DNA of 64,000 nt from Rhodospirillum centenum SW (GTDB lineage: Bacteria; Pseudomonadota; Alphaproteobacteria; Azospirillales; Azospirillaceae): assembly GCF_000016185.1 (NCBI RefSeq), contig NC_011420.2, forward strand, positions 3,837,501-3,901,500, written 5' to 3'. Below are positions 3 through 17,654 of this stretch, piece after piece. Every line of letters starts with the position of its first letter. Position 1 is the first letter of the stretch. The position numbers and the translations under genes are program-made. The notes under the pieces are model-generated. The model saw nothing but the letters and a program-made list of their open reading frames with translations. It did not search any database and was not told the origin of the DNA.

Positions 3-857
3 GACATCTATGCCTCGGGATACCGGGTGGCCGCGGCCCTCCAGCTCGCCCAGGGCGAACACGACGGGGCCCTGGCCGTTCTGGCCCGTGGCGAGCGGAC
101 GGCAGCGGAGCGGGGGCTCGCGCGGCTGGGCCGGCTGATCGCCTGCGAACGTGCCCGCATCCTGACCGCCATGGGGGAGACGGCCTGGGCACGCGACGCC
201 CTGGCACCGCTTCAGGCGGAACTGCCGCTCATGCGCGCCTCACCGGCCGCCTGGCGGGAGCGCCACGCCTTCCTGACGGTCCAGGCCCGGCTGCTGCTGG
301 CGGAGGGGCACCCGCACGCCGCACTGGAGGCCGCCGGCGAGGCCGCGGAGCGGGCGCGGGAGGCCGGCATGACGGTCCACCGGATACAGGCACTCGTCCT
401 GAAGGCCGAAGCCGCCACCCGGCTGGCGGTGGAAAGCGGCGGACCGCACGACACCACCGCCGACCCGGTGGCGGAGCTGGCCCAGGCCCTCACCCTGGCG
501 GCCCCGGAAGGGCTGCGGCAGGTCTTCCTGGAGCACGGCGAACGGCTGGCGCCGCTGCTGCGCGACTGCCTGCGCCGAAGCCGGGAGATCGGGCTGGACA
601 GTCTGGCCCGCGCCTTCGCCGAGGAGCTGGAACGCACCCTGGCGCGGCCCCGCGACGAGGCCGACACGCTGAGCCCGCGCGAGCGCGCCGTGGTCATCGA
701 GCTGTGCCGCGGCGCCTCCAACAAGGAGATCGCCCGGGCGCTGGCCATGACCGAGAACACGGTCAAGTTCCACCTGAAGAACATCTTCGGGAAGCTGGGC
801 GTGGACCGGCGGGCCGCCGCCATCATCACCGCCCGACGCCTGCTCGGCCTGTCCTGA
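3..857 (+). CDS. LuxR-family (LAL/MalT-like) transcriptional regulator, 5' truncated by window edge
   Basis: The frame is open to the left edge of the window, so only the C-terminal 284 residues are visible. The last ~62 residues form a LuxR-type helix-turn-helix: LSPRERAVVIELCRGASNKE, then IARAL, then TENTVKFHLKNIFGKLGVDR. The Ala/Leu/Arg-rich helical part before it (QLAQGEHDGALAVL, AWARDALAPLQAEL, PHAALEAAGEAAERA) looks like the TPR-like ligand-sensing region of LAL or MalT regulators. No receiver domain is visible, but the N-terminus is missing. The gene lies just upstream of, and in line with, the hydantoinase-type run, with a lux-box-like palindrome in between, so it may control that run; this is inference. 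Family call is firm, target is not. Confidence 0.85.
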   Translation, partial: DIYASGYRVAAALQLAQGEHDGALAVLARGERTAAERGLARLGRLIACERARILTAMGETAWARDALAPLQAELPLMRASPAAWRERHAFLTVQARLLLAEGHPHAALEAAGEAAERAREAGMTVHRIQALVLKAEAATRLAVESGGPHDTTADPVAELAQALTLAAPEGLRQVFLEHGERLAPLLRDCLRRSREIGLDSLARAFAEELERTLARPRDEADTLSPRERAVVIELCRGASNKEIARALAMTENTVKFHLKNIFGKLGVDRRAAAIITARRLLGLS

Positions 858-1139: not shown

Positions 1140-2711
1140 ATGCGCATCGGCGTCGATGTCGGCGGAACCAATACGGATGCAGTCCTCATGGACGGGCGCC
1201 GGGTGGTCGCCACCTACAAGTCACCCACGACGGCCGATGTCGGCAGCGGCATCGTCGCCGCCATCCGCGCGGTGCTGGACGCTTCCGGCCTGGGACCGGA
1301 GAGCATCAAGGCGGTGATGATCGGGACGACCCATTTCACCAACGCCTTCGTCGAGCGCAAGCGGCTGCTGCCGGTGGGGATCATCCGGATCGCCCTGCCG
1401 GCGGGCAAGGGCCTGCCGCCCCTGATGGACTGGCCCGAGGACCTGAAGGCCGGCGTCGGCGGCGATGTCGCCCTGGTCGGCGGCGGCCGGGAGTTCGACG
1501 GCCGCCCGATCGCGCCCCTGGACGAGGCGGCGGTGGCCGAAGCCGCCCGCCGCTTCCGGGCGAAGGGACTGACGGCGGTCGCCATCAGTTCGATCTTCGC
1601 CCCGGTCAACCCGGACATGGAGGAGCGCGCCGCCGCCATCGTGCGCGAGCTGCATCCCGACGCGCTCATCACCCTGTCCGGCAGCATCGGCCGGATCGGC
1701 ATGCTGGAGCGCGAGAACGCCACCATCATGAATGCCAGCCTGGCCGAGATGGCGCGGCATGTGGTGGCGTCCTTCCATGCCGCCCTGGCCGAGCTGAAGC
1801 TGGACTGCCCGTTCTTCGTCAGCCAGAACGATGGCACCCTGATGAATGCGGAGACGGTGGCGCGCTTCCCCGTCCTCACCTTCGCGTCGGGTCCCACCAA
1901 CAGCATGCGCGGCGCCGCCTACCTGTCGGGCCTGACGGACGCGCTGGTCATCGACATCGGCGGCACGACCAGCGATGTCGGCATGCTGGTCAAGGGCTTC
2001 CCCCGCGAATCCTCGGTCGCCGTGGACATCGGCGGCGTCCGCACGAACTTCCGGATGCCGGACATCCTCTCCATCGGGCTGGGCGGCGGCAGTCGCGTCC
2101 GGCCTGTGGAGGGGCCGGCGGAGAACCCGGGGGAGGTCAGCGTCCGGGTCGGGCCGGACAGCGTCGGCTACCGTCTGCCGCAGGAGGCCCGCGTCTTCGG
2201 CGGCGAGGTCCTGACCACTTCCGACATCGCGGTCGCGGCCGGCCTTGCCAGCATGGGCGATCCGTCCCGCCTCGCCGGTCTGGACCGCGGGCTGGTCGCG
2301 TCGGCCCTGGCCGAAATCCGGCGCCTGCTGTCCGGCGCCATCGACCGCATGAAGACCAGCGCCACCGACCTGCCGGTCGTGCTGGTGGGCGGCGGCGCCA
2401 TCCTGGTGGACGGGACGCTGCCCGGGGCGGCGCGGATCGTGCGGCCGGAGAACGGCGGCGTCGCCAATGCCATCGGCGCCGCCATCGCGCAGATCGGCGG
2501 CGAGGTCGATCGGGTCTACTCCTACCAGGAGCTGGGCCGCGAGGCGGCCATCGCCAAGGCCAAGGAAGAGGCAGCGGCCATCGCCGTCCGCGCCGGAGCC
2601 GACCCCGGCAGCATCGACATCCGCGACCTGGAGGAGGTGCCGCTGGCCTACCTGCCGGGCGGGGCCGTGCGCATCCGCGCCAAGGCCGTCGGCGACATGG
2701 CCGGAATCTGA
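1140..2711 (+). CDS. Hydantoinase/oxoprolinase family protein, short HyuA-like ATPase (DUF917-associated type)
   Basis: This protein of 523 residues belongs to the ASKHA-fold hydantoinase A/N-methylhydantoinase A family, which couples ATP hydrolysis to opening of cyclic amide rings. The N-terminal phosphate-binding motif MRIGVDVGGTNTDAVLM is at residues 1-17, the second (IDIGGTTSDVGML) near residue 271, and a late glycine-rich motif (VLVGGGAILV) near 413. The ATG at 1140 is chosen over an upstream GTG (1050) because GGAGGG sits just before it and the family motif starts directly after it. It is shorter than full HyuA (~690 residues, as in the gene at 6011), matching the short form usually paired with DUF917. 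The DUF917 gene follows 15 bp downstream. The exact substrate is unknown. Confidence 0.85.
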   Translation: MRIGVDVGGTNTDAVLMDGRRVVATYKSPTTADVGSGIVAAIRAVLDASGLGPESIKAVMIGTTHFTNAFVERKRLLPVGIIRIALPAGKGLPPLMDWPEDLKAGVGGDVALVGGGREFDGRPIAPLDEAAVAEAARRFRAKGLTAVAISSIFAPVNPDMEERAAAIVRELHPDALITLSGSIGRIGMLERENATIMNASLAEMARHVVASFHAALAELKLDCPFFVSQNDGTLMNAETVARFPVLTFASGPTNSMRGAAYLSGLTDALVIDIGGTTSDVGMLVKGFPRESSVAVDIGGVRTNFRMPDILSIGLGGGSRVRPVEGPAENPGEVSVRVGPDSVGYRLPQEARVFGGEVLTTSDIAVAAGLASMGDPSRLAGLDRGLVASALAEIRRLLSGAIDRMKTSATDLPVVLVGGGAILVDGTLPGAARIVRPENGGVANAIGAAIAQIGGEVDRVYSYQELGREAAIAKAKEEAAAIAVRAGADPGSIDIRDLEEVPLAYLPGGAVRIRAKAVGDMAGI

Positions 2712-2726
2712 AGGAAGGGCTGAGCC

Positions 2727-3821
2727 ATGACCATCGACCTGAGCATCCCCGCCCTTCACGACATCGCCCGTGGCGCCGCCTTCCTGGGCACCGGCGGCGG
2801 CGGCGATCCCTATATCGGGCGGCTGCTGGCGCAGCATGCGCTGGCGAAATACGGGGCGCCGCCCGTGGTGGCGCTCCAGGACCTGCCGGACGACGCCAAC
2901 CTCTACACCATCGCCATCATGGGCGCGCCCACGGTGATGGTGGAGAAGCTGGTCGGCGGCGACGAGGTCGGGCTGGCCGTGAAGGCGCTGGAGCAGCACA
3001 CCGGCCGGCCGGCCACCGCCATCCTGCCGGTGGAGATGGGGGGCATCAATTCGCTGCTGCCGGTCAAGCTGGCGGCAGAGCGGGGCCTGCCCGTCGTGGA
3101 TGCCGACGGGATGGGCCGCGCCTTCCCCGAACTCCAGATGGTCACCTTCAACGTGATGGGCATCCCGGCGACGCCCATGGCGCTGGCCAACGAACACGGC
3201 GAGTACAACGTCATCAGCGCCCGCGACGCCAAGTCGGCCGAGGACATGGCCCGGCTGATGGTGATCCACATGGGCGGCGGCGTGGCGTTGTCCTGCTATC
3301 CCATGAGCGGGGCGGAGGCGAAGCGGGCCGCCATCCCCGGCACGCTGTCGCTGGCGCTGGGCATCGGGCAGGCCATCGCCGCCGGGCGGCGCGCCGGCGA
3401 CCCGTTCGAGGCGCTGCTGGGCTATCTGCGCGGCACGGACTACTACCGGCACTGCGCGGTGCTGTTCGACGGCAAGATCGTGGACCTGGTGCGGGAGACG
3501 ACCCGCGGCTTCTCCATCGGCCGGTGCAGCATCGCCGCCGACGGCGCCGCCACGGCGGACATGGAGATCCTCTTCCAGAACGAGAACCTCGTGGCGCGAC
3601 GCGGCGGCCGGACGGTCGCCATCGTGCCCGATCTCGTCACCATGCTCGACCGTGAGACGGCGGAGCCGATCACGACCGAGTCGCTGAAGTACGGGCAGCG
3701 GGTCCGGGTGATCGGGGCGAGCGTGCCCCCGATCATGCGCTCGCCCGCCGCCCTGGCCTGCTTCGGACCCCGCAGCTTCGGGATCGAAGAGGATTTCCAA
3801 CCAATAGAAGACCTCATCTGA
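2727..3821 (+). CDS. DUF917 family protein (partner of HyuA-like ATPase)
   Basis: The 364-residue protein has the DUF917 hallmark GTGGGGDPYIGRLLAQHAL near residues 20-40 and the conserved stretch ILPVEMGGINSLLPVKLAAE, with VDADGMGRAFPELQM after it. DUF917 (PF06032) is, as I recall, now associated with S-methyl-thiohydantoin desulfurase proteins; that naming should be checked. Members are commonly encoded next to HyuA-like ATPases, as here (15-bp gap, same strand). No signal peptide or membrane segment is visible, so it is probably cytoplasmic. The likely job is to work with the upstream ATPase on a hydantoin-like ring, but the substrate cannot be read from sequence. Confidence 0.85.
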   Translation: MTIDLSIPALHDIARGAAFLGTGGGGDPYIGRLLAQHALAKYGAPPVVALQDLPDDANLYTIAIMGAPTVMVEKLVGGDEVGLAVKALEQHTGRPATAILPVEMGGINSLLPVKLAAERGLPVVDADGMGRAFPELQMVTFNVMGIPATPMALANEHGEYNVISARDAKSAEDMARLMVIHMGGGVALSCYPMSGAEAKRAAIPGTLSLALGIGQAIAAGRRAGDPFEALLGYLRGTDYYRHCAVLFDGKIVDLVRETTRGFSIGRCSIAADGAATADMEILFQNENLVARRGGRTVAIVPDLVTMLDRETAEPITTESLKYGQRVRVIGASVPPIMRSPAALACFGPRSFGIEEDFQPIEDLI

Positions 3822-3839
3822 GGCGAAGCGGAGGCTCCA

Positions 3840-5927
3840 TTGCGCACGTCGATCCAGCTCACGTCCCGCCTGCTCACGACGACCACCCTGACGGCACTTC
3901 TCGCCGGGCTGACAGCGGTCCCCGCCGCGGCCCAGTCCGGCCTCGCCATCGAGGAGATCGTCGTCACCGCCCAGAAGCGTGAGGAGCGGTTGCAGGACGT
4001 GCCCGTCTCGGTGACCGCCTTCTCCGCCGACGCGATCGAGGATGCGGGCGTGCGCACGCCGCAGGACTTCATCGCACTGACGCCGAACATCGGGATCGTG
4101 CAGAGCTTCACGGTCGGCAACAGCTTCGTCACGGTCCGCGGCATCTCCCAGATCAACAACAGCGATCCGTCGGTCGCTGTCGTGGTGGACGGGGTGCCGC
4201 AGGCGAACCAGAAGCAGCTCACCCAGCAGCTCTTCGACATCGAGCGGATCGAGGTGCTGAAGGGACCGCAGGGCGCCCTCTACGGCCGCAACTCCATCGG
4301 CGGCGCCATCAACATCATCACCCGGCAGCCCGGCAACGACTTCGAGGGATACACCGAGGCGGGCTATGCCGAGGGCAACACCCGCACCCTGTCGGCCGCG
4401 GCCGGCGGGGCGATCGTCGCCGACAGGCTGTTCTTCCGCGCCGCCGGCTCCTATGCCGACAGCGACGGCCAGATCACGAACGGGTTCCTGGACGAGAAGG
4501 CCGACTTCTACGAGGACAGGACGGGCCGCGCCCAGTTGCGCTGGATCGCCAGCGACAGCGTCACGGTCGATCTGCGCGGATCGATCTCCGACACCGAGGG
4601 CGGCGCCGTCCTCTACAGCCAGTTCCCGACCCTGGGCTTCTCCAACAACGAGAACGTCAAGCCGGACGAGAACCTGCTGGGCCGCAGCGAGCGCGACATG
4701 GGCGATCTCAGCCTGAAGCTCGACTGGGACTTCGGCGCGGCAACGCTGACCTCGATCAGCGCCTACAGCAAGGTCAAGGAGAACTACCGCGGCGACCTGG
4801 ACTTCTCCCGGGTGCAGTCGATCGGCCAGGGTCAGGACCTGGAGGTCGAGATGTGGAGCCAGGAACTGCGCCTGACCTCGCCCGACGACCAGCCGCTGCG
4901 CTGGATCGGCGGCGCCTACATCCTGCAGACGGACCGCGACCTGCGCACCACGGTCTTCCTGGACACCAACAGCACGCTCGCCGGCCTGCAACCGCTGTTC
5001 ATCTTCGGCGACGAATCCAACGACAACCTCGCCTACGCCTTCTTCGGCCAGGCCTCCTATGACGTGACCGACCGCTTCGAACTGTCCGGCGCGCTGCGCT
5101 ACGACAGCGACGAGCGCGAGCAGACCGACCTGCTGCGCAACAACGCGGTGCGCTCCAAGACTTTCAGCGAGTGGCAGCCGAAGGTGACGGCGAAGTACGA
5201 ATGGACGCCGTCGCTGATGACCTACGCCACCTTCTCGACCGGGTTCCGCTCCGGCGGCTACAACGCGCCCACCGTCAACCCCAGCATCTTCCAGAAGGAA
5301 GTCAGCACGAACTACGAGGTGGGCTTCAAGTCCCAGCTCATGGACAACCGCCTGATCCTGAACGGTTCCGCCTTCTACACGAAGCTGGACGACGCACAGA
5401 TCTTCCGGGTCGATCTGACGGCCGGCGCCCAGATCATCGACAATGTGAAGGAAGCCGAGCTGACGGGCTTCGAGCTTGAGTTCCAGGCCCGCCTCGCCGA
5501 AGGCTGGGACGCGTTCGGCGGCGTCGGCGTGACCGACAGCGAGATCAAGGATTTCGACGGAACCCGCGCCTACCGCGGCAACCAGCTTCCGAACAACACC
5601 AAGGCGAAGATCAACGGCGGAACGCAGTACAGCTTCCCCATCACCGACGCGCTGTCCGGCCTGCTGCGCGCCGACGTCGAATACCGCGGCAAGCAGTACT
5701 TCCATGCCGACAACATCGACTACCGCGATCCGGTGACCCTGGTGAACCTGCGCGCCGGGCTGGAGACCGAGCGCTGGTCGCTGACGGCCTATGTGAAGAA
5801 CCTGACCAACAAGCAGTTCTTCACGGAATACGCCGACGGCTTCTGGTCGGGCTCGGCCACCGGCCAGGATCTGGGCCAGCTCTCCCCGCCGCGGCAGTTC
5901 GGCGTGACCGGCCGCGTCCGGTTCTGA
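3840..5927 (+). CDS. TonB-dependent receptor of the hyu locus
   Basis: The 695-residue outer-membrane receptor has a signal peptide ending near AAAQ (about residue 31) and the plug-domain opening EEIVVTAQKREERLQDVPVS typical of IroN/FecA-like receptors. Further plug motifs are VAVVVDGVPQ, IERIEVLKGPQGALYGRN and GGAINIITRQP. The beta-barrel follows and ends in a C-terminal aromatic residue (GRVRF). The start is TTG at 3840, supported by GGAGG five bases upstream; no ATG fits better. It lies between the DUF917 gene (18-bp gap) and hyuA, suggesting it imports the compound the neighbouring enzymes degrade. Specificity is not determinable. Confidence 0.9.
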   Translation: MRTSIQLTSRLLTTTTLTALLAGLTAVPAAAQSGLAIEEIVVTAQKREERLQDVPVSVTAFSADAIEDAGVRTPQDFIALTPNIGIVQSFTVGNSFVTVRGISQINNSDPSVAVVVDGVPQANQKQLTQQLFDIERIEVLKGPQGALYGRNSIGGAINIITRQPGNDFEGYTEAGYAEGNTRTLSAAAGGAIVADRLFFRAAGSYADSDGQITNGFLDEKADFYEDRTGRAQLRWIASDSVTVDLRGSISDTEGGAVLYSQFPTLGFSNNENVKPDENLLGRSERDMGDLSLKLDWDFGAATLTSISAYSKVKENYRGDLDFSRVQSIGQGQDLEVEMWSQELRLTSPDDQPLRWIGGAYILQTDRDLRTTVFLDTNSTLAGLQPLFIFGDESNDNLAYAFFGQASYDVTDRFELSGALRYDSDEREQTDLLRNNAVRSKTFSEWQPKVTAKYEWTPSLMTYATFSTGFRSGGYNAPTVNPSIFQKEVSTNYEVGFKSQLMDNRLILNGSAFYTKLDDAQIFRVDLTAGAQIIDNVKEAELTGFELEFQARLAEGWDAFGGVGVTDSEIKDFDGTRAYRGNQLPNNTKAKINGGTQYSFPITDALSGLLRADVEYRGKQYFHADNIDYRDPVTLVNLRAGLETERWSLTAYVKNLTNKQFFTEYADGFWSGSATGQDLGQLSPPRQFGVTGRVRF

Positions 5928-5959
5928 GGCTGCGCCGGACCCCGGACGAGCGCACCCGT

Positions 5960-5984
5960 CCCGGCGGCTGTCATGGCCGCCGGG
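5960..5984. terminator. Hairpin between TonB receptor and hyuA
   Basis: CCCGGCGGC and GCCGCCGGG form a perfect 9-bp stem around a 7-base loop, 33 bp after the receptor stop. The following TCCCCTTTCC is pyrimidine-rich but not a true T-run. It may attenuate rather than stop transcription into hyuA. Confidence 0.4.
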
Positions 5985-6010
5985 TCCCCTTTCCGCTTCC
6001 GCAAGGACCC

Positions 6011-8092
6011 ATGATGCGCGTCGCAACCGATGTCGGCGGGACCTTCACCGATCTGGTGCTGTGCCGGGAGGACGCCCATGGCGCCATCACCGGCGTCTCC
6101 ACGGTGAAGGTCGACACCACGCCCCCGGACTTCGAGCGGGGGGTGCTGGATGCCCTGCGCACGGCCGACGTGGCGATGGACGGTCTGGGCCTGTTCGTCC
6201 ACGGCACGACGGTGGTCATCAACGCCCTGACCGAGCGCAAGGGCGTCGTCACCGGGCTGATCACGACGGAGGGCTTCCGCGACGTGCTGGAGATCGGGCG
6301 GTCGAACCGGCCCGACCTGTTCAACTTCGCCTTCCGCAAGCCGGTGCCGTTCGTGCCGCGGCACCTGCGCCGGGAAGTCCCCGAGCGGCTGGACGTGAAG
6401 GGCCGGGTCGTGCGGGAGCCGGACCTGTCCGGCCTGCCCGCCATCCTGGACGACTTCCGGGCCGCGGGCGTGGAGGCCGTCGCGGTCTGCCTGCTGCACG
6501 CCTACCGCAACCCGGCGCACGAAGCCGCCGTGGCGGCGGAGATCGCGCGGCTGTGGCCGGAGGTGACCGTCACCGCCTCGCATGCCGTGACGCGGGAATG
6601 GCGCGAGTACGAGCGGACCAGCACGGCCGTGCTGTCCGCCTATGTGAAGCCCGCCGCCGGCCGCTACCTGGACAGGCTGCGGCAGCGCCTGGAGGCCGAC
6701 GGCTTCCGCGGCCGCGCCTACGTGATGCAGTCGAACGGCGGCATCGCCACCCTGGCCGCGGCCCGCGCCAATCCCATCGCCATGGTGGAATCCGGCCCGG
6801 TCGGCGGCATGCTGGCCGCGGCGGCGCTGGGCCGCCTGATCGGGGAGCCCGACGTCATCGCGCTGGACATCGGCGGCACGACGGCGAAATGCACCCTGAT
6901 CCAGGGCGGCGAGCCGCGCATCACCACCGATTACTGGATCGAGCAGACGCCCCGGACCCCCGGCTACGCCATCAAGACGCCGGTCATCGACATCGTGGAG
7001 ATCGGCAACGGCGGCGGCAGCATCGCCTGGGTCGATGCCGGCGGTGCGCTGCATGTCGGGCCGAAGAGCGCCGGCTCCACCCCCGGCCCCGTCGCCTATG
7101 GCCGCGGCGGCACGGAGCCGACGACGACCGACGCCAACCTGCTGACCGGGCGGATCAATCCGGACCGCTTCGCCGGCGGGGCCATCGTCCCCGACCTGCC
7201 GGCCGTGGAGGCCGCCTTCGCCCGCGTGGGGTCCGCCTTCGGTGCCGATGCGGTCGCCACGGCCCGCGGCGTCATCCGCATCGCCAACGCCAACATGGTG
7301 AACGCGCTGAAGCTGGTCTCGCTGAACCGCGGCCACGACCCGCGCGACTTCGCCCTGGTCGCCTTCGGCGGCGGCGGCGCCATGCACGCGGCCCAGCTTG
7401 CGGCCGAGCTTGCCATTCCCCGCGTCGTGATCCCGGTCCATGCCGCCGTCTTCTCGGCCCTGGGCATGCTGATGTCTGACCTGCGGCGGGACTATATCCG
7501 CACCCGCATCCTGCGCCTGGACACCGCCCCGCCCGCCGAGTTGGCGAGCCTGTTCGACGAGCTGGCGGCGGAAGCCGGCGCGGATTTCGGGGAGGACGGC
7601 TTCGCCCCGGAGACGGTGCTGCTGACCCGTCATGTCGATGCCCGCTATCTGGGCCAGGAGCATACGGTCAAGGTGCCGGTGCCCGCGGGCCCGCTGGACG
7701 CGGTCGCCATCGCCGATCTGGTCGAGGCGTTCCATGCCGCGCACCGCCGGGCCTACACCTTCGCGCTGGACGCGCCGGTGGAGATCGTGAACGCGCATCT
7801 GGTCGGCGTCGGCCAGATCGCCAAGCTGGACCTGCCGCCCCGCCCCGTCACCGGCCGCACGGTGGAGACGGCCCGCACCGGCGCCCGCCGGGTCGATTAC
7901 GACGTGGACGGCATCCACGACGCCGCCGTCTACGACCGCGACGCGCTGGAGCCGGGCATGACCCTGGACGGCCCGGCGCTGGTGGAGGAAGGCGCCACCG
8001 TCGCCGTCGTGCCCCCCGGCTGGACCGTGCGGGTGGACACCTTCGGCAATCTCATCCTCGACCGCCGGACCGGCGGCACCCCGGAAAGGTGA
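6011..8092 (+). CDS. hyuA: Hydantoinase/oxoprolinase subunit A (HyuA-type, ATP-dependent)
   Basis: This is a full-length HyuA/5-oxoprolinase N-half protein of 693 residues. Motifs seen: MRVATDVGGTFTDLVLC at the N-terminus, VHGTTVVINALTERKG (residues ~69-84), the nucleotide-binding IALDIGGTTAKCTLI (~284-298), and GNGGGSIAWVD. The C-terminal region carries YLGQEHTVKVPVP, usual for the family. It should form a heteromer with the HyuB subunit encoded 4 bp downstream and hydrolyse a cyclic amide (hydantoin, N-methylhydantoin, 5-oxoproline or acetophenone-like) with ATP. Two ATG codons stand in tandem at 6011 and 6014; either may serve. It is distinct in size and sequence from the shorter paralogue at 1140. 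Confidence 0.9.
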   Translation: MMRVATDVGGTFTDLVLCREDAHGAITGVSTVKVDTTPPDFERGVLDALRTADVAMDGLGLFVHGTTVVINALTERKGVVTGLITTEGFRDVLEIGRSNRPDLFNFAFRKPVPFVPRHLRREVPERLDVKGRVVREPDLSGLPAILDDFRAAGVEAVAVCLLHAYRNPAHEAAVAAEIARLWPEVTVTASHAVTREWREYERTSTAVLSAYVKPAAGRYLDRLRQRLEADGFRGRAYVMQSNGGIATLAAARANPIAMVESGPVGGMLAAAALGRLIGEPDVIALDIGGTTAKCTLIQGGEPRITTDYWIEQTPRTPGYAIKTPVIDIVEIGNGGGSIAWVDAGGALHVGPKSAGSTPGPVAYGRGGTEPTTTDANLLTGRINPDRFAGGAIVPDLPAVEAAFARVGSAFGADAVATARGVIRIANANMVNALKLVSLNRGHDPRDFALVAFGGGGAMHAAQLAAELAIPRVVIPVHAAVFSALGMLMSDLRRDYIRTRILRLDTAPPAELASLFDELAAEAGADFGEDGFAPETVLLTRHVDARYLGQEHTVKVPVPAGPLDAVAIADLVEAFHAAHRRAYTFALDAPVEIVNAHLVGVGQIAKLDLPPRPVTGRTVETARTGARRVDYDVDGIHDAAVYDRDALEPGMTLDGPALVEEGATVAVVPPGWTVRVDTFGNLILDRRTGGTPER

Positions 8093-8096
8093 CCCC

Positions 8097-9779
8097 ATGC
8101 AGCCCGCGGACAGCTTCACCCGTGAGGTGATCAAGAACGCCCTCGTCGCCATCGGCGACGAGATGTTCACGGCGCTCAAGCGCACCAGCATGAGCCCGAT
8201 CATCTACGAGACGCTCGACTATGCCATCGGCATCACCGACGCCGCCGGCCGCCTGATCGCCCAGGGCAACGGCGTGCCGCTGTTCATCGGCACCCTGGAC
8301 GCCGCCGTGCGCTCCGTGCAGGAGAAGTTCGCCGGCCCCGGCCGCATCAGTCCCGGCGACGTCTTCATCACCAACGATCCCTATGGCGGCGGCGGCACGC
8401 ACCTGTCCGACGTGACGCTGGTGCGTCCCATCTTCCACGAGGGCACGCTGCTGGCCTGGGCCGCCAACAAGGCACACTGGACGGAGGTGGGCGGCAAGGA
8501 CGCCGGCAGCTTCAGCCCGAACACGACGGAGATCTACCAGGAGGGGCTGCAGTTCCCCGCCGTCCGCCTGTTCGACCAGGGCCGCATCAACGAGGCGCTG
8601 GTGGACATGATCCGCGCCAATGTGCGCCTGCCGGACATGACCCTGGGCGACATGTGGGCCGGGGCCGCCGCGCTTCAGCTTGGCGAGCGCCGCTTCCTGG
8701 ATCTGGTGGACAAGTACGGCACGGCCGGGGTGGCCGATGCGGTGGAGCATCTGCTGGACCATGGCGAGGCGATGATCCGGCAGGAACTGGCGCGGCTGCC
8801 CAAGGGCACCTTCACGGCGGAGGACATGATCGACGACGACGGGCTGGGCAACGGCCCCTTCCCGGTCCGCGTCGCCATCACCATCACCGACAGCGAGTTC
8901 ATCGCCGACTTCACGGGCAGCGCCGCCCAGGCGCCGGGTCCCATCAACAACACCCGCGCCGGCCTGCTGTCGGCCGTGCGCGCCGTGTTCAAGGCCCTGA
9001 CCAACCCGGCGATCCCGGCGACCGAGGGCGTCTTCCGGCCGCTGAAGGTGATCTGCCCCGACGGCACCGTGATGACGGCCAGCCGCCCGGCCCCCGTCTC
9101 CATCTACTACGAGACGATGATCTCCGCCGCCGACGTGATGTGGAAGGCGCTCGCCCCGCACATGCCCGACCGGCTTCCGGCGGGGCATTACGGATCGGTC
9201 TGCGCGACGGTGATCGCCGGCCGGCATCCCGACAGCGGCGACTTCTTCCTGCTGGTCGAGCCGCTCGCCGGCGGCTGGGGGGCCGCCTGCGACGGCGACG
9301 GCCAGCAGGGCCAGTTCTGCGTCGGCAACGGGGAGACCTACAACATCCCGGTGGAGGTGACGGAGGCCCGCTACGGCGTGCGCGTCGAGCGCTTCGGCTT
9401 CCATACGGAGGATGGCGGCGCCGGCCGCTTCCGCGGCGGCAAGGGGTTGCAGCTCGAATACCGGGTGCTGGGCGACGGCGCCTTCATGTCCACCACCTTC
9501 GGCCGTTACCGGCATCGGCCCTGGGCCATGCAGGGCGGCCAGGAGGGCTCGCCCAACTTCGCCGAGGTGGTGCGGGCCGACGGCGAGGTCGTCCGTTTCA
9601 GCAAGACCGCGCGCCTGCCGCTGGCCCGGGGCGATCTGGTGCGGCTGGTCACCGGCACCGGCGGCGGCTGGGGCGATCCGCGGGAACGGGACCCGGCGCG
9701 CATCGCGGCAGACCTGCGCGACGGCTATCTGACGCCCGCCCAGGCGGCGCGGGACTACGGCTACGACAGCGGACACTGA
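8097..9779 (+). CDS. hyuB: Hydantoinase/oxoprolinase subunit B (HyuB-type)
   Basis: The 560-residue protein is a hydantoinase B/5-oxoprolinase C-half. Typical stretches: TREVIKNALVAIGDEMFTAL and KRTSMSPIIYETLDYAIGI at the N-terminus, then FITNDPYGGGGTHLSDVTLV (~residues 90-109), and near the C-terminus the glycine-rich TGTGGGWGDPRERDP. It starts 4 bp after hyuA, so the two are translated together. HyuB supplies the hydrolytic part of the ATP-dependent ring-opening enzyme. Length agrees with standalone HyuB proteins (~520-590). The family is certain; the ring substrate is not. Confidence 0.92.
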   Translation: MQPADSFTREVIKNALVAIGDEMFTALKRTSMSPIIYETLDYAIGITDAAGRLIAQGNGVPLFIGTLDAAVRSVQEKFAGPGRISPGDVFITNDPYGGGGTHLSDVTLVRPIFHEGTLLAWAANKAHWTEVGGKDAGSFSPNTTEIYQEGLQFPAVRLFDQGRINEALVDMIRANVRLPDMTLGDMWAGAAALQLGERRFLDLVDKYGTAGVADAVEHLLDHGEAMIRQELARLPKGTFTAEDMIDDDGLGNGPFPVRVAITITDSEFIADFTGSAAQAPGPINNTRAGLLSAVRAVFKALTNPAIPATEGVFRPLKVICPDGTVMTASRPAPVSIYYETMISAADVMWKALAPHMPDRLPAGHYGSVCATVIAGRHPDSGDFFLLVEPLAGGWGAACDGDGQQGQFCVGNGETYNIPVEVTEARYGVRVERFGFHTEDGGAGRFRGGKGLQLEYRVLGDGAFMSTTFGRYRHRPWAMQGGQEGSPNFAEVVRADGEVVRFSKTARLPLARGDLVRLVTGTGGGWGDPRERDPARIAADLRDGYLTPAQAARDYGYDSGH

Positions 9780-9791
9780 GGGGGGACGGCC

Positions 9792-10115
9792 ATGCGGACC
9801 TTCACCATCGCCGACCCGGAGGACGGGCGGCTGACGCGGGAACTGGGGGTGCTGGACCTGCCCGGCGGCGGCCGGCTGCGCATCGGCACCGCCCTGCTGC
9901 CGGCCGGTGCGCGGATTCCCGATGCGGGCGCCTCGCTGCACGCGGGGCATGAGCTGTCCGTCATCCTGTCCGGCCGGGCGGAAACGGAAAGCGGCGGGGA
10001 AGCCGCCGTCATCGGGGGTGGCATGGTCAGCGTCATCCCGGCGGGGGAACCGCATGTCGCCGTCGTGCGGGAGGAGATGCGGCTTGTCTATTTCATGCTG
10101 GAACCGGCAAGCTGA
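9792..10115 (+). CDS. Small cupin-domain protein
   Basis: The 107-residue single-domain protein contains the two half-motifs of a cupin barrel: HAGHELSVILSGRAE (residues ~50-64) and IPAGEPHVAVV (~81-91), supplying His and Glu ligands for a metal. GGGGGACGGCC before the ATG is a plausible ribosome binding site. It lies 12 bp after hyuB and 6 bp before an FAD oxidase, all on the same strand. It could be an isomerase, dioxygenase or sensor for the pathway. Cupins are too diverse for a function call. Confidence 0.8.
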   Translation: MRTFTIADPEDGRLTRELGVLDLPGGGRLRIGTALLPAGARIPDAGASLHAGHELSVILSGRAETESGGEAAVIGGGMVSVIPAGEPHVAVVREEMRLVYFMLEPAS

Positions 10116-10121
10116 GCCGCC

Positions 10122-11246
10122 ATGGAACACCGGGCGGACATCGTCGTCATCGGGGCCGGGATCGCCGGGCTGTCTGTCGCGGCCTTTCTGGCGCCGCGGC
10201 GGCGTGTCCTGGTGCTGGAGGCGGAGGCGCAGCCCGGCTATCACGCCTCCGGCCGCACCGCGGCCCTGTTCGCCGAAGCCTACGGCAACGCCCCCGTCCG
10301 GGCCCTGACCCGCGCCAGCCGGCCCTTCTTCGAGACACCGCCGGCGGGGTTCTGCGACCAGCCCCTGCTGCACCCGCGCGGCACCCTGTTCATCGCCACC
10401 CACGACCAGGCGGAGAGCCTGGCCGCCACCGCCGCGGAGATCGGGCCTGCCCTGCTCCCGCTCGACCCTGACCAGGCCGTGGCGCTGGTGCCCCGGCTGC
10501 GGCGGGAGCGGCTGCTGGGCGCGCTGCACGATCCGACCGCCGCCGACATCGACGCGCATGCCCTGATGCAGGGCTTCGTCCGCATGATCCGGGAGGCCGG
10601 GGGCACCGTCCTGACCGACCGTGCGGCCGATGCCATCGACCGCACGCCGGACGGCTGGCGCATCCGGGCGGGCGGGGAGACGGTCGCGGCCGACCTTCTG
10701 GTCGATGCCGCCGGCGCCTGGGGCGACCGCGTCGCCGCCCTGGCCGGCATCGCTCCCGTGGGGCTGGAGCCGAAACGACGCACCGCCTTCCTGTTCGATC
10801 CGCCGGCTGGGCCGGATACCGCCGGCTGGCCGATGGTGATGGACGTGGACGAGGGCTTCTACGTGAAACCGGAGAGCGGCCGCCTGCTCGGCTCCCCCGC
10901 GGACGAGAGCCCGTCGGAGCCCTGCGACGCCCAACCGGACGACTATGACATCGCCGTCGCCGCCGAGCGCATCCAGGAGGCGCTGGACCTGGAGTTCCGG
11001 ACGCTGAAGGCGAAGTGGGCGGGGCTGCGCACCTTCGCGCCCGACCGCACGCCCGTCGCCGGCTTCGACCCGGCGGACGACCGCTTCTTCTGGCTGGTCG
11101 GGCAGGGTGGCTACGGGATGCAGACCGCCCCGGCCCTGGGACGGCTGGCGGCCGGGCTGATCCTGGACGGAAGCCTGCCGCAGGACTGCCGGGACGAGGG
11201 CGTCGCGGTCAAGGATCTCGCCCCCGGCCGCTTCGGGGGACGCTGA
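10122..11246 (+). CDS. FAD-dependent oxidoreductase, D-amino-acid/glycine oxidase (DAO) family
   Basis: The 374-residue DAO-family flavoprotein has an N-terminal dinucleotide-binding fold ADIVVIGAGIAGLSVAAFL (residues 5-23) with the acidic end VLVLEAEAQPGYHASGRTAA. The C-terminal FAD-contact region is FAPDRTPVAGFDPADDRFFW, then GQGGYGMQTAPALGRLAAG. No signal peptide is visible. It probably oxidises a C-N bond in an amino acid or N-substituted amino acid released by the hydantoinase steps; that link is inferred from its place in the run. Its TGA overlaps the next gene's ATG by one base. Confidence 0.85.
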   Translation: MEHRADIVVIGAGIAGLSVAAFLAPRRRVLVLEAEAQPGYHASGRTAALFAEAYGNAPVRALTRASRPFFETPPAGFCDQPLLHPRGTLFIATHDQAESLAATAAEIGPALLPLDPDQAVALVPRLRRERLLGALHDPTAADIDAHALMQGFVRMIREAGGTVLTDRAADAIDRTPDGWRIRAGGETVAADLLVDAAGAWGDRVAALAGIAPVGLEPKRRTAFLFDPPAGPDTAGWPMVMDVDEGFYVKPESGRLLGSPADESPSEPCDAQPDDYDIAVAAERIQEALDLEFRTLKAKWAGLRTFAPDRTPVAGFDPADDRFFWLVGQGGYGMQTAPALGRLAAGLILDGSLPQDCRDEGVAVKDLAPGRFGGR

Positions 11247-12247
11247 TGGCCGGAACCGGGGAGAGGCCGATGCCACGGGACATGACGGGCAGGCCGAGGG
11301 TCGTCTGGGACAATCACGCCTGCATGCCACTACGCAGCGATGCCAGCTTCCTGCCACAGCTCCAGCGCCTGCGCGAGAGCGGCTTCACCATGGTCAGCCT
11401 GAATGTCGGGATGGATCAGACCCCGGCGACGGAGATCATGGAAACCGCGGCCTTCTTCCGCGACTGGATCGCGGCCCGCCCGGACGAGTACTGCCTGGCC
11501 GGCAGCACCGAGGACGTGGCGGACGCCGCCGCCACCGGCCGGCTGGGCGTCGCCTTCGACATCGAAGGCGCGGAGTCGCTCGCCGTCCGGCCGGAATTCG
11601 CGGAGATCTACCGTTCCTTGGGCGTGCGCTGGATCAGTCTGGTCTACAACCGGACCACGGGCATCGGCGGCGGCTGCCATGACGACGACCCCGGCTTGAC
11701 CGCGGCCGGCGAGCGGGCCGTACAGGCCATCCAGGAAGCCGGCATGGTCGTCTGCCTGAGCCATACCGGCTGGCGCACCGCGCGCGACGTGCTGGAGCGC
11801 GCCGACCGGCCGGTGATCTTCTCCCACTCCAACCCGCACGCGCTGAAGGCGCACGGTCGCAACATCGGCGACGATCTGATCCGCGCCTGCGCCGCCACGG
11901 GCGGGGTGGTCGGCATCAATGGCGTGGACCTGTTCCTGGGCGGGGAGCCGACGCCGGAGCGGATCGCCGCCCATGTCGCCTATGTCGCCGATCTGGTGGG
12001 GCCGCAGCATGTCGGCCTGGGGCTGGACTATGTGTTCGACCAGGAAGAGCTGCGCGACTGGCTGAACCGGCACCGGGACCGCTGGTCGCCCGAGCTGGGC
12101 TACCGGCCGGACATCGCCGTCGCGCCGCCCGAAAGCCTGAACGGCATCGTCGAGGCGCTGGCGCGGCAGGGCTTCGCGGCCCCCGAACTGGACATGATCC
12201 TGGGCGGCAACTGGCTGCGCGTGGCCCGGCGCTGCTGGAACGCCTGA
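11246..12247 (+). CDS. Membrane dipeptidase-like (peptidase family M19) protein with HxC in place of HxD
   Basis: The 333-residue protein matches the renal-dipeptidase (M19) fold. The zinc-site residues appear as E107 (FDIEGAESL), H173 (LSHTGWR), H194 (VIFSHSNPHAL) and D261 (HVGLGLDYVFD). At the N-terminal metal motif, normally HxD, it reads WDNHACMP, i.e. H24-A-C26, so Cys takes the place of Asp. Cys could still bind zinc. The start at 11246 gives TGATG coupling to the oxidase gene; a later ATG at 11270 is possible. No signal peptide is seen, so it is probably cytoplasmic and hydrolyses a dipeptide or cyclic amide made in the pathway. It closes the hyu run. Confidence 0.82.
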   Translation: MAGTGERPMPRDMTGRPRVVWDNHACMPLRSDASFLPQLQRLRESGFTMVSLNVGMDQTPATEIMETAAFFRDWIAARPDEYCLAGSTEDVADAAATGRLGVAFDIEGAESLAVRPEFAEIYRSLGVRWISLVYNRTTGIGGGCHDDDPGLTAAGERAVQAIQEAGMVVCLSHTGWRTARDVLERADRPVIFSHSNPHALKAHGRNIGDDLIRACAATGGVVGINGVDLFLGGEPTPERIAAHVAYVADLVGPQHVGLGLDYVFDQEELRDWLNRHRDRWSPELGYRPDIAVAPPESLNGIVEALARQGFAAPELDMILGGNWLRVARRCWNA

Positions 12248-12362: not shown

Positions 12363-12525
12363 CGTTCCAGGTGCCCGGTTGCCTCCGGGAGAATCGGGAA
12401 GGCAGTGGAAGTCTGCCACGCGCCCAGCGCTGTGAAGGGGACCTTCCGGACGGATGCCACTGGCCCCGCGGGCCGGGAAGGTGTCCGGAAGGGGTGAGCC
12501 TGAGTCAGAAGACCGGCCTGGAACG
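12363..12525 (+). promoter_or_regulatory. Cobalamin (B12) riboswitch
   Basis: The leader of bluB has the cobalamin-riboswitch layout. A 9-bp closing stem pairs CGTTCCAGG (12363-12371) with CCTGGAACG (12517-12525). Inside are GGTGCCC near the 5' end, a GGGAATCGGGAA-like segment (here GGGAGAATCGGGAA), GATGCCACTGG, GCCGGGAAGG and the conserved 3' block GAGTCAGAAGACC. It should lower bluB expression when adenosylcobalamin is plentiful. The switch mechanism, start-site masking or termination, is not clear. Confidence 0.93.
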
Positions 12526-12582
12526 TCCTGGGAAGCCGCCATGGACGGGCGGCGACCCGTGCTTGCCCATGCAGGGGAAACC

Positions 12583-13290
12583 ATGGAAGCCAATCCGTAT
12601 CAGGCCGACGCAGAGTTCACCGCCGCCGAGCGCGACAGCGTCTACAAGTGCATCTTCAAGCGGCGCGACGTGCGGGGCCAGTTCCTGCCCGATCCGATCC
12701 CGGACGAGGTGCTGGGGCGCATCCTGAAGGCGGCCCACCACGCGCCGTCCGTCGGCTTCATGCAGCCCTGGGACTTCATCGTCGTGCGCGACCCGATGGT
12801 GAAGCGCAAGGTGCGCGACGCCTTCCAGACCGCGAATACCGAAGCGGCCGACATGTTCGAGGGCGACCGGCAGGAGACCTACCGACGGCTGAAGCTGGAG
12901 GGCATCGTCGAGGCGCCGGTGGGCATCTGCGTCACCTGCGACCGCGAGCGCACCGGCCCGGTGGTTGTCGGCCGCACGCACCAGCGCGAGATGGACCTCT
13001 ACAGCGCCGTCTGCGCCGTGCAGAACCTCTGGCTGGCCGCGCGGGCGGAAAATGTCGGCGTGGGCTGGGTCAGCATTCTGCGCCATGCCGACCTGCGCGA
13101 GGCGTTGGGCATCCCGGCCTCGATCCAGACCATCGCCTATCTCTGCGTCGGCTATGTCTCGCACTTCTTCCAGAACCCGGAACTGGAAGCGGCCGGCTGG
13201 CTGCCGCGCACGCCCCTGCGCGACGTGGTCTGGTTCGACCGCTGGCACGGCCGCACGGGCGAGGAAACGCTCCTGCAGCAGCTCGGGTAA
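12583..13290 (+). CDS. bluB: 5,6-dimethylbenzimidazole synthase BluB
   Basis: BluB cleaves FMNH2 with O2 to make 5,6-dimethylbenzimidazole, the lower ligand of cobalamin. The 235-residue protein shows the nitroreductase-like fold: CIFKRRDVRGQF, LKAAHHAPSVGFMQPWDFI, the segment THQREMDLYSAVCAVQNLWL, and GVGWVSILRHADLREALGIP. The ATG at 12583 follows AGGGGAAACC; an in-frame ATG at 12541 lies nearer the riboswitch end and would add 14 residues. The cobalamin riboswitch directly upstream independently supports the assignment. It stands alone, without other cob genes nearby. Confidence 0.95.
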   Translation: MEANPYQADAEFTAAERDSVYKCIFKRRDVRGQFLPDPIPDEVLGRILKAAHHAPSVGFMQPWDFIVVRDPMVKRKVRDAFQTANTEAADMFEGDRQETYRRLKLEGIVEAPVGICVTCDRERTGPVVVGRTHQREMDLYSAVCAVQNLWLAARAENVGVGWVSILRHADLREALGIPASIQTIAYLCVGYVSHFFQNPELEAAGWLPRTPLRDVVWFDRWHGRTGEETLLQQLG

Positions 13291-14163: not shown

Positions 14164-15474
14164 CTACAGAAACAGGAAGCCCAGGGAGATGACGACGCCC
14201 GAGAGCAGCAGGATGACAAGGCAGTAGCCCATCACGTCCTTGGCCCGCAGCCCGGCGATGGCGAGCGCCGGCAGGGCCCAGAAGGGCTGGATCATGTTCG
14301 TCCAGGCATCGCCCCAGGCGACCGCCATGGCCGTGCGCGGCACGTCCGCCTGAAGCTCCAGGGCGGCGGGCAGCATCACCTGGGACTGCACCGCCCACTG
14401 GCCGCCGCCCGACGGGATCAGGATGTTCAGCAGTCCCGCACTCCAGAAGGTGAAGAGCGGCAGGGTCTGGGCCGTCGAGATGGAGACGAACCAGGCCGAG
14501 AGGTCGCGCGCCAGCCCCGACCCCACCATCATGCCCATGATCCCGGCATAGAAGGGGAACTGGATGATGATGCCGGCAGCACCCTTCACCGCTTCCTCCA
14601 GGCTGCGCAGGAAGCGGTGGGGCGTGCCGTGCAGAAGAATCCCCAGCATCAGGAATCCGAAATTGACGATGTTGAGGTTCAGGCCGCCCTGGCGCCAGAC
14701 ATGAACGGCGAGATAGGCGAGACCGAGTCCCCCGATCGCCAGCGCCAGCAGCCGGCTGTGCTCCAGATGTTCGGCCGGCCGCTCCACCACCTCCCCGGTT
14801 GAAGGCGTCGGATCGGCAAGCCTGTCAGGATCCACGAAGACCGGCCGTGCGCCATGCCCCAGCATCAGCCGGTTGGCGAGGGGGATCAGCACGAACAGGG
14901 CCAGGACGATGGTCAGGTTGAACCCGGCGAAGATCGTCTCGCTGGTCGGCACGACGCCGATCAGCTTTTCCGTGAAATGGCCGGGCGTGGCGATGACCAG
15001 GGGCACCGACCCCGAAAGGCCGCCATGCCAGACGATGAAGCCGCTGTAGGCCGACGCGATCAGCAGAGGGTAATCGACCTGCACCCGGCGCGCGAGCTGC
15101 CGGGCGAACAGGGCGCCGATCACCAGCCCGAACCCCCAGTTCACCCAGCTTGCGACCAGAGAGACGACCGTGACCAGCAGGATCGCCTGTCCCGGGGTCC
15201 GCGCCAGCCTGGCAAGCGCCCCGAGCAGGCGGGCGAAGACCGGCGTGCTGGCCAGCACGAAGCCGGTGACCAGAACCAGGACCATCTGCATGCTGAATTC
15301 CAGCAACTGCCAGAAGCCCTTGCCCCAATGCTCCACCATCGCCTGCGGGGACTGGCCCTCGAAGAGCATGCCCGAGACGAACACCAGGAGCGTCAGCAGC
15401 AGCACCAGCACATAGGGATCGGGAAGGAAGCGTTCTGTCAGGCGGGTCGAGGCCAGCGTCAACGATCGGAACAT
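14164..15474 (-). CDS. atoE: Short-chain fatty acid transporter, AtoE family
   Basis: This 436-residue integral membrane protein of the AtoE/TIGR00366 family has many hydrophobic segments. Typical blocks: LTERFLPDPYVLVLLLTLLV at the N-terminus, LVASWVNWGFGLVIGALFAR, AYSGFIVWHGGLSGSVPLVI, the conserved NILIPSGGGQWAVQSQV, and GDAWTNMIQPFWALPALAI near the C-terminus. AtoE proteins are associated with uptake of short-chain fatty acids such as acetoacetate or butyrate. No ato CoA-transferase or thiolase genes adjoin it here. It is divergent from the exported deaminase-like gene at 15693. Confidence 0.9.
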   Translation of the reverse strand: MFRSLTLASTRLTERFLPDPYVLVLLLTLLVFVSGMLFEGQSPQAMVEHWGKGFWQLLEFSMQMVLVLVTGFVLASTPVFARLLGALARLARTPGQAILLVTVVSLVASWVNWGFGLVIGALFARQLARRVQVDYPLLIASAYSGFIVWHGGLSGSVPLVIATPGHFTEKLIGVVPTSETIFAGFNLTIVLALFVLIPLANRLMLGHGARPVFVDPDRLADPTPSTGEVVERPAEHLEHSRLLALAIGGLGLAYLAVHVWRQGGLNLNIVNFGFLMLGILLHGTPHRFLRSLEEAVKGAAGIIIQFPFYAGIMGMMVGSGLARDLSAWFVSISTAQTLPLFTFWSAGLLNILIPSGGGQWAVQSQVMLPAALELQADVPRTAMAVAWGDAWTNMIQPFWALPALAIAGLRAKDVMGYCLVILLLSGVVISLGFLFL

Positions 15475-15692
15475 GCTTTCTCCTCAGTGATGGCCAGCGG
15501 CGACGGGAAACTCCCTTCGTATCCATCCTTCTACCAGCACTGACGCCAGGTTCTACCCGTAATGACGCCCGGTCGGACGCTTCGTTCCCGCCTTTGCGGC
15601 GATGGGAAACCGGATGTCCACCGATACCCCGTTTGCACCACGTCCCCGATCTGGTCATATCGGTGCTTCCGTTCCGCTGCCCGGACAGACCG

Positions 15693-17237: not shown

Positions 17238-17272
17238 AGCATCTCTCCGACGCGGAGTGCTGCAGGGGCCGG

Positions 17273-17308
17273 CGGGTCTGTCTTCCCTGACCGGGATCGA
17301 CAGACCCG
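17273..17308 (+). terminator. Hairpin downstream of the deaminase-like gene
   Basis: CGGGTCTGTC and GACAGACCCG form a perfect 10-bp stem with a 16-base loop, 35 bp after the stop codon. No T-run follows. Confidence 0.4.
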
Positions 17309-17400
17309 GCGGACAGCCTATGCCGGAAGCATCAACATCGGATCCGTCTTTTCTGGGACCTGACGCCGGATTGGCTATACCTGAAGAGAAAATACACTCA

Positions 17401-17467
17401 CAGAATTTACATCAATTCTGGCAAATAACACTTTATATCGAGTTTCGTGTTGCTGTATTTCAACACG
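17401..17467. promoter_or_regulatory. AT-rich promoter region with two inverted repeats, upstream of a TonB receptor
   Basis: The 417-bp gap before the TonB receptor at 17655 has an AT-rich island (17380-17520) that stands out from its surroundings. It holds two perfect inverted repeats: CAGAATT/AATTCTG with a 6-base spacer (17401-17420) and CGTGTTG/CAACACG with an 8-base spacer (17446-17467). These look like operators in a promoter region. No clear -35/-10 pair could be fixed. The rest of the gap holds no gene I can support. Confidence 0.45.
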
Positions 17468-17654
17468 CCTCTGTTTTTATGTGATTTCTTCTTTCGAGAC
17501 ATTTCGCATCCTGAGTTCCCGATGCTAGCTCGCAGGAATGGCCTGCCCGGCATCGCCTGCGCTGACGGGGGGCGGCAACCGCCACCCGGCGCGGCCGGGC
17601 GGCCCGCGACAACGAACGGCAGGCCGCAACGGCCGCCGGAACAGGGAACAGGGA

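Follow-up and report, generated by a model that had tools for sequence, protein, structure and literature searches.

How do bacteria take up small cyclic amides and open their rings, and does Rhodospirillum centenum SW devote an operon to one of them? The question is raised by a run of eight genes, all on the forward strand, at positions 1140-12247 of the 64,000-nucleotide stretch of contig NC_011420.2 analysed here (positions 3,837,501 to 3,901,500 of the contig; hereafter the window). Judged by comparison of its sequence with those of other genomes, the run is one real unit, rare in its complete form and a new combination of known parts. We tentatively favour the reading that it is a regulated operon for the uptake and breakdown of a cyclic dipeptide (2,5-diketopiperazine), the ring of which probably contains or releases a D-amino acid whose side chain is neutral. 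Natural products of this kind are abundant, and some of them act as signals.

An eight-gene unit and its occurrence elsewhere

All eight predicted proteins have a Pfam match above the cut-off, the cupin only just (Table 1), and their genes are spaced by 15, 18, 83, 4, 12, 6 and -4 bp, with the widest gap between the TonB receptor and HyuA genes and the last value reflecting an overlap of the start of the M19 gene with the end of the DAO gene. Open reading frames, domain matches and spacing bear out a first-pass annotation, made from the letters of the window alone, which had placed these genes in tight succession within the same boundaries. The gene for a MalT/LuxR-type protein, a probable ligand-responsive regulator of the operon, ends 282 bp before HyuS on the same strand.

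The arrangement goes beyond chance because it is largely repeated in G710, a genome of the same class and another family (locus covered by stretches L106 and L112), where LuxR-HyuS-DUF917-TonB-NCS1 permease-cupin-HyuA-HyuB-M19 form one run on one strand with the regulator (L112:659-3427) directly upstream of HyuS. Protein identities to the window are 60% for HyuS, 56% for DUF917, 34% for the TonB receptor, 32% for the cupin, 57% for both HyuA and HyuB and 45% for M19. The regulator and seven of the eight genes are thus shared, while G710 has the NCS1 permease and is without the DAO gene; it is the sole locus found with a near-complete set in one run. A second, rearranged relative lies on a plasmid of Novosphingobium sp. 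EMRT-2 (L085), where LuxR-TonB-racemase-HyuA-HyuB-M24-lyase adjoins TonB-racemase-DUF917-HyuS-LuxR. The regulator, HyuS, DUF917, TonB, HyuA and HyuB are common to this locus and the window, in contrast to its racemases, M24 peptidase, lyase, two receptors and two regulators, and neither M19 nor cupin is present in the stretch shown. The first-pass annotation had proposed one unit fitting a cyclic amide and had named orthologous neighbourhoods as the test of co-occurrence; both loci uphold the unit, and G710 answers the test with all but the flavin adenine dinucleotide (FAD) enzyme gene in one run. Its expectation that the genes travel together holds for G710, whereas elsewhere among the loci examined the set splits into a HyuS-DUF917 and a HyuA-HyuB module.

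A DUF917 relative occurs in seven of the 59 genomes searched as relatives, R. centenum included, and four of the six others have an adjoining HyuS (L012, L013, L014 and L015), some with LuxR, TonB, NCS1 or peptide-type ATP-binding cassette (ABC) transporter genes nearby. HyuS was not seen at the DUF917 loci L016 (a 5-kb contig), L017 or L018 (a second DUF917 locus in one of those genomes), HyuAB was not seen at any DUF917 locus of the six, and one contig scan with DUF917 as the query returned only one locus. For HyuB, five of 398 genomes of the phylum have a match at E < 1e-160, R. centenum included, and among the others only G710 reaches 57% identity; in the family of G710, two of 29 genomes pass E 1e-170 (G710 and G789). 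An M19 match is present in 33 of 337 genomes of the class, and since the 20 regions fetched from these hold none of the other seven window genes at E 1e-8, M19 alone does not mark the operon. At E 1e-3 two of the 20 hold peptide-type ABC genes (L059 and L060) and one a weak M24-like gene (L065). With the DAO gene as anchor, the neighbourhoods were unrelated in the two plasmid records checked of 245 (Azospirillum and Sulfitobacter). Beside the G710 unit, the opposite strand carries genes for another TonB receptor and for a RidA-family protein (L106:5642-8192).

Table 1. Features of the window at and around the eight-gene run, with domain scores.
Feature	Position	Strand	Evidence and remarks
C-terminal part of MalT/LuxR-type regulator	27-857	+	GerE 60 bits, TPR_MalT 58 bits; 5' end left of window
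HyuS, short HyuA-like ATPase, 523 residues	1140-2711	+	Hydant_A_N 141 bits, Hydantoinase_A 100 bits
DUF917 / S-Me-THD-like protein, 364 residues	2727-3821	+	S-Me-THD_N 190 bits, S-Me-THD_C 208 bits
TonB-dependent outer-membrane receptor	3840-5927	+	Plug 79 bits, barrel 154 bits; TTG start
HyuA, predicted ATPase/kinase subunit of an ATP-dependent cyclic amidohydrolase	6011-8092	+	Three hydantoinase domains; Hydantoinase_A 288 bits
HyuB, predicted ring-opening partner subunit	8097-9779	+	Hydantoinase_B 592 bits
Small cupin, 107 residues	9792-10115	+	Cupin_2 30.3 bits, cut-off 27.2
DAO-family FAD enzyme, DauA-like	10122-11246	+	DAO 192 bits
M19 dipeptidase-family metallohydrolase	11243-12247	+	Peptidase_M19 229 bits, cut-off 26
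BluB	12454-13290		265 bits, cut-off 150; 206 bp after M19

Two parallel, putatively ring-opening modules

HyuA, with its N, A and C domains, and the HyuB partner that follows it (6011-9779; Pfam) belong to the superfamily of ATP-dependent amidohydrolases. HyuA carries the motifs DVGGTFTD, DIGGTTA and FGGGG, the glycines of which are invariant in eight HyuA rows, and HyuS carries DVGGTNTD at 6, DIGGTTSD at 272 and VGGG at 416; we take the glycine motifs of both proteins to be ATP-binding motifs of the actin type. The domain make-up and ATPase motifs are those of N-methylhydantoinase 7hk5 (HyuA against PDB, E 1.4e-129), of 6yra, deposited as a 5-oxoprolinase (E 9e-118), and of the caprolactamase CapAB, with acetophenone and acetone carboxylases as more remote members. 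No NCBIfam equivalog model is reached by HyuA or HyuB, and the two CapAB models give 505 and 282 bits against a cut-off of 1000 per subunit. Unlike these known systems, the window adds the HyuS-DUF917 pair, an outer-membrane receptor, M19 and the DauA-like enzyme. A housekeeping role of the window pair as 5-oxoprolinase is unlikely, given that the R. centenum genome has at 669 kb another HyuA-HyuB gene, a fused one in which the domains are ordered as in 5-oxoprolinases (G000:C1:668480-671458 and beyond; L020).

In a tree of 31 HyuB proteins, the window protein falls near L085, L106, L086 and L087 in a 17-row group of moderate support (88/86), its other rows coming from 15 loci, while a separate group of 10 rows from 10 loci has support 99/97, and two long-branch rows as well as L166 and L168 stand outside both. 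Identity of HyuB is 57% to each of L085, L086 and L106, and that of HyuA 57% to L106 and 59% to L085. In the family of G710, L113:1573-13999 presents two tandem HyuA-HyuB pairs behind a TonB receptor, together with an amidohydrolase and an NCS1-like permease.

HyuS is the shorter counterpart of HyuA, its best Hydantoinase_A stretch spanning profile positions 1-173 of 291 and Pfam giving no match to the Hydant_A_C domain. Across 20 aligned HyuS rows G8, G9, T10, D272, G274, G275, T276 and G417-G419 are invariant. HyuS adjoins DUF917 in 18 of 20 loci anchored on HyuS (L143-L162), or 29 of 31 with 11 loci chosen otherwise, and within 6 kb of it in these 31 loci are matches to LuxR (10), TonB (6), NCS1 (7) and DppB-type permeases (10); in L011, too, a LuxR-type regulator lies directly upstream of HyuS. 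DUF917 itself has G21, G23-G26, E73, E103, D127, E172, E286, D302 and E318 invariant in 24 aligned proteins and no invariant or nearly invariant histidine or cysteine, which speaks against a classical metal site. Its AlphaFold model (mean predicted local distance difference test score, 90) resembles one PDB entry convincingly, the function-unassigned 2o3i (Z 39.3 over 340 residues, root-mean-square deviation (rmsd) 2.4), the next row reaching Z 5.3 over 92 residues (rmsd 3.3).

In gene order, DUF917 follows HyuS as HyuB follows HyuA, and we hypothesise that ring activation falls to HyuS and completion of the reaction to DUF917. The window and G710 look like the union of two parallel modules that share their types of regulator and transporter, and this suggests a common class of compound as the target of both modules. 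A bolder extension, which we consider rather improbable, is that HyuS-DUF917 represents a novel type of ATP-dependent ring opener, with DUF917 in the place of HyuB, and that with HyuAB it makes up a widespread modular system for cyclic dipeptides, the window operon being tuned to a D-residue ring. Uptake in such a system would be exchangeable (by TonB, NCS1 or peptide ABC), and a ring racemase and ring openers would be joined by a dipeptidase suited to the ring, namely M24 where it contains proline and M19 with a D-amino acid dehydrogenase where it contains a D-residue. Genes for DUF917 and PF01177 racemases are reported to be enriched in cyclodipeptide-oxidase clusters (PMC11055893; this and the other papers are cited for the portions of their text available, except where the main text is named). 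The window differs from those clusters in having no cyclodipeptide oxidase among its eight genes and in joining HyuS-DUF917 to HyuAB in one run.

A candidate cyclic dipeptide pathway and its alternatives

From the genes, their families and linkage, the ATPase motifs and the residue pattern of the DAO-family protein we infer the following reactions, substrate and order of steps. The TonB receptor would carry the ring compound over the outer membrane and an inner-membrane carrier encoded outside the operon would import it. HyuA would then use ATP to phosphorylate the lactim form of the ring amide and HyuB would complete its hydrolysis to a linear dipeptide, with HyuS and DUF917 serving as a further pair that uses ATP to open rings of the same compound class, perhaps those of another stereoisomer or another ring. 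The M19 enzyme would split the linear dipeptide and the DauA-like enzyme would oxidise the D-amino acid to a 2-oxo acid, while the cupin may bind or isomerise an intermediate and the MalT/LuxR-type regulator would switch the operon on. If this is true, it offers a testable answer to how bacteria open the rings of cyclic dipeptides, in a compact operon with named candidates for uptake, ring opening and onward use in a single bacterium described as genetically amenable. The conserved modules would give a means of finding the same pathway in other genomes, and DUF917, named in NCBIfam only for relatives acting on thiohydantoins, would gain a place in ring opening.

A cyclic dipeptide is favoured because the neighbourhoods of the relatives show dipeptidases, peptide transporters, racemases and proline catabolism, and because of an outline in the literature. 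Nine of the 15 loci of the close group have an M24 or M19 gene no more than 6 kb from HyuB (L085, L086, L087, L093, L106, L107, L165, L167 and L172; that of L087 seems split between frames), against none of the 10 of the distant group (Fisher p 0.0028 for a contrast chosen after the fact, between rows that are not independent and with seven of the ten distant-group contigs ending less than 6 kb from HyuB on one side or both). The close loci without such a gene near HyuB are L091, L108, L109, L113, L169 and L171. In Parageobacillus the M24 protein is nearest to Xaa-Pro dipeptidases, with 257 bits for the PepQ model (below its cut-off of 630) and Xaa-Pro aminopeptidase and dipeptidase entries as its best PDB rows, and its gene is followed by PruA (over cut-off) and then proline dehydrogenase (299 bits, cut-off 500). 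On the Rhodococcus plasmid L166, outside the 17-row group, genes for proline dehydrogenase and PruA likewise form a pair, divergently oriented, about 3 kb from HyuA. Peptide-type ABC genes are found beside HyuAB in L091, L093, L107, L165, L167 and L172, and racemase genes near HyuAB in L085, L086, L091, L093, L107 and L172, PF01177 having been run on the one of L107 only.

As for the literature, cyclo(Gly-Leu) is degraded by a ring hydrolase and a dipeptidase, the ring enzyme being unknown in 2013; the peptidases tested failed to open cyclic dipeptides, the responsible enzymes were called unclear, and the available text names no gene for opening the diketopiperazine ring (PMC3852281). The caprolactamase paper guesses that many genes annotated as 5-oxoprolinase may be lactamase or cyclic dipeptide hydrolase genes (PMC6061476), and our search, which left subscription papers mostly outside, found no paper pairing oxoprolinase with diketopiperazine or cyclodipeptide.

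L108 and L109 have HyuAB without HyuS-DUF917, accompanied by LuxR, TonB, NCS1 and a cyclophilin-type prolyl isomerase. The isomerase gene follows TonB-HyuA-HyuB-NCS1 in both (L108:12058-12615 and L109:7345-7929; two genomes of one genus), and would make sense if the opening of a proline ring yields a cis Xaa-Pro dipeptide that prolidase does not cleave.

The nature of the amino acid released is suggested by the DAO-family protein, which aligns nearly over its full length with DauA of Pseudomonas aeruginosa (3nyc; E 5e-105, 181 of 367 aligned residues identical, 49%). It keeps R222, R305, Y53, Y249 and E246 of DauA and changes E87 to Thr (Thr88), H48 to Leu (Leu49) and T50 to Ala. In DauA, R222 and R305 contact the carboxylate, Y53 and E246 gate the site, and E87 together with E246 binds the guanidinium group of D-arginine, D-leucine being independent of E87 (PMC11193025). 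The carboxylate and gate residues are therefore those of DauA, and with Glu87, a mark of D-arginine dehydrogenase proper, lost, a neutral D-amino acid is a likelier substrate than D-arginine for the predicted enzyme. The first-pass annotation spoke of an FAD oxidase; the nearest enzyme, DauA, is described as a strict dehydrogenase (PMC11193025).

A partnership of this enzyme with M19 has some parallels. A Variovorax plasmid carries an M19 gene (46%) and, about 4.7 kb away and divergent from it, a DauA-like gene (49%), in the company of genes for RidA and a serine hydrolase, and on a Novosphingobium plasmid M19 adjoins a DAO-family gene. M19 enzymes accept L-D dipeptides. The pairing is only occasional, since a DauA-like gene is missing from all 20 of the M19 regions of the class. 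The window M19 protein (11243-12247) and M19 proteins of L053-L071 belong to a subgroup whose first metal motif reads H-x-C.

Uptake across the outer membrane is predicted for a receptor with plug and beta-barrel domains and an N-terminus that, judged by eye, resembles a signal peptide, and TonB receptors lie beside HyuS or HyuAB in L011, L012, L085, L106, L108, L109, L113, L146 and L147. Seven peptide-type binding proteins are encoded elsewhere in the R. centenum genome, which has five SBP_bac_5 peptide-binding protein genes in a row on the minus strand at G000:C1:2278260-2286258. The cupin is 32% and 33% identical to cupins beside HyuA/HyuB in G710 and Parageobacillus, respectively.

Several observations weigh against a cyclic dipeptide operon, beginning with the contig ends of the distant group given above. 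The first metal motif of M19 dipeptidases is H-x-D, and the window enzyme has H-x-C, one of 15 rows to do so among 17 aligned (the 17 being the window, L106 and 15 of the 20 regions fetched). Conservation of the unit does not extend to the DAO gene, which is absent from G710, where the NCS1 permease is added, and which was not found at E 1e-3 in the 20 M19 regions of the class, three of which are contigs shorter than 9 kb. The full set is rare: HyuB has matches at E < 1e-150 in 10 of 385 genomes of the class, and in the 11 regions retrieved HyuS, DUF917 and M19 are all absent and M24 occurs once. The run, which the first-pass annotation had called self-contained, includes no inner-membrane transporter, and the R. 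centenum genome gives no NCS1 match, so that this description falls short of full support. Among the relatives, L171 encodes a hydrolase of the M20 type, with which hydantoinases are usually paired, HyuAB has sugar-type ABC genes as neighbours in L166 and L171, amidohydrolases take the place of peptidases in L113 and L166, and the NCS1 permeases and PF01177 racemases would fit hydantoins equally. With His48, part of the proton relay of DauA (PMC11193025), replaced in the window protein, D-amino acid oxidation by the DauA-like enzyme is not assured. Finally, the paper on cyclodipeptide-oxidase clusters reads its DUF917 and racemase genes as modifying hydantoin or allantoin, with DUF917 a likely hydantoinase (PMC11055893), and the available portions of the cited literature give no diketopiperazine activity for HyuAB or DUF917.

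The main rival is a hydantoin operon, which we regard as possible though unlikely. ATP-driven opening of a 5- or N-substituted hydantoin by HyuAB would here yield an N-carbamoyl amino acid, with M19 in the role of carbamoylase and the DauA-like enzyme oxidising the D-amino acid. Such a pathway agrees with the hydantoinase nearest to HyuA in the PDB, the M20-type hydrolase of L171, the published reading of DUF917, the hydantoin racemases included in PF01177 and the family of the G710 permease, to which the hydantoin permease Mhp1 belongs (E 2e-11, against E 7e-34 for the closer cytosine permease). It is at odds with the absence of an M20- or nitrilase-type carbamoylase among the eight genes and with relatives that place Xaa-Pro-type M24 peptidases, peptide transporters and proline dehydrogenase there. 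The same chemistry could serve another cyclic amide or peptide, such as a lactam, an imide, a pyroglutamyl peptide or a larger cyclic peptide with D-residues, a reading that we hold to be doubtful. The substrate is not readable from sequence, the family includes caprolactamase and 5-oxoprolinases (PMC6061476), and the separate fused gene leaves the window pair free for another role; on the other side, the scores for the caprolactamase models fall far short, and caprolactam would need neither a dipeptidase nor a D-amino acid dehydrogenase.

Less probable by far, and in our view very unlikely, is that two unrelated units, HyuS-DUF917-TonB and HyuAB-cupin-DAO-M19, merely abut in R. centenum. The parts do occur separately in most other loci examined and the 83-bp gap falls between them, but in G710 a single regulator precedes both, in unchanged order and together with cupin and M19, they lie side by side on the Novosphingobium plasmid, and on two Bacillota plasmids HyuAB and HyuS-DUF917 are about 10 and 6 kb apart. 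Weakest is a thiohydantoin or S-methyl-thiohydantoin pathway with DUF917 as desulfurase, which is scarcely to be expected: DUF917 exceeds the cut-off for the Pfam S-Me-THD domains and matches both NCBIfam desulfurase models with significant E-values, yet it misses those models almost fivefold in bits (95 of 450 and 88 of 440), the identified neighbour families give no hint of sulfur chemistry, and no paper joining thiohydantoin and desulfurase was found in a search that left subscription papers mostly outside. Of the substrates offered by the first-pass annotation, then, the cyclic dipeptide fits the neighbourhoods best, hydantoin stays as its main rival and thiohydantoin loses ground.

Expression signals and flanking genes

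A scan for sigma-70 promoters found none, against 0.4 expected. The cyst transcriptome paper PMC4340629, searched for expression data on these genes, names TonB receptors in its available text, and the terms hydantoin, oxoprolinase and dipeptidase are absent from its main text. BluB, the gene after M19, has no evident part in the operon. Past BluB, window positions 14164-20624 hold a minus-strand gene for a short-chain fatty acid transporter, followed by genes for an adenosine-deaminase-family protein and another large TonB receptor (1028 residues), which may constitute a separate uptake unit.

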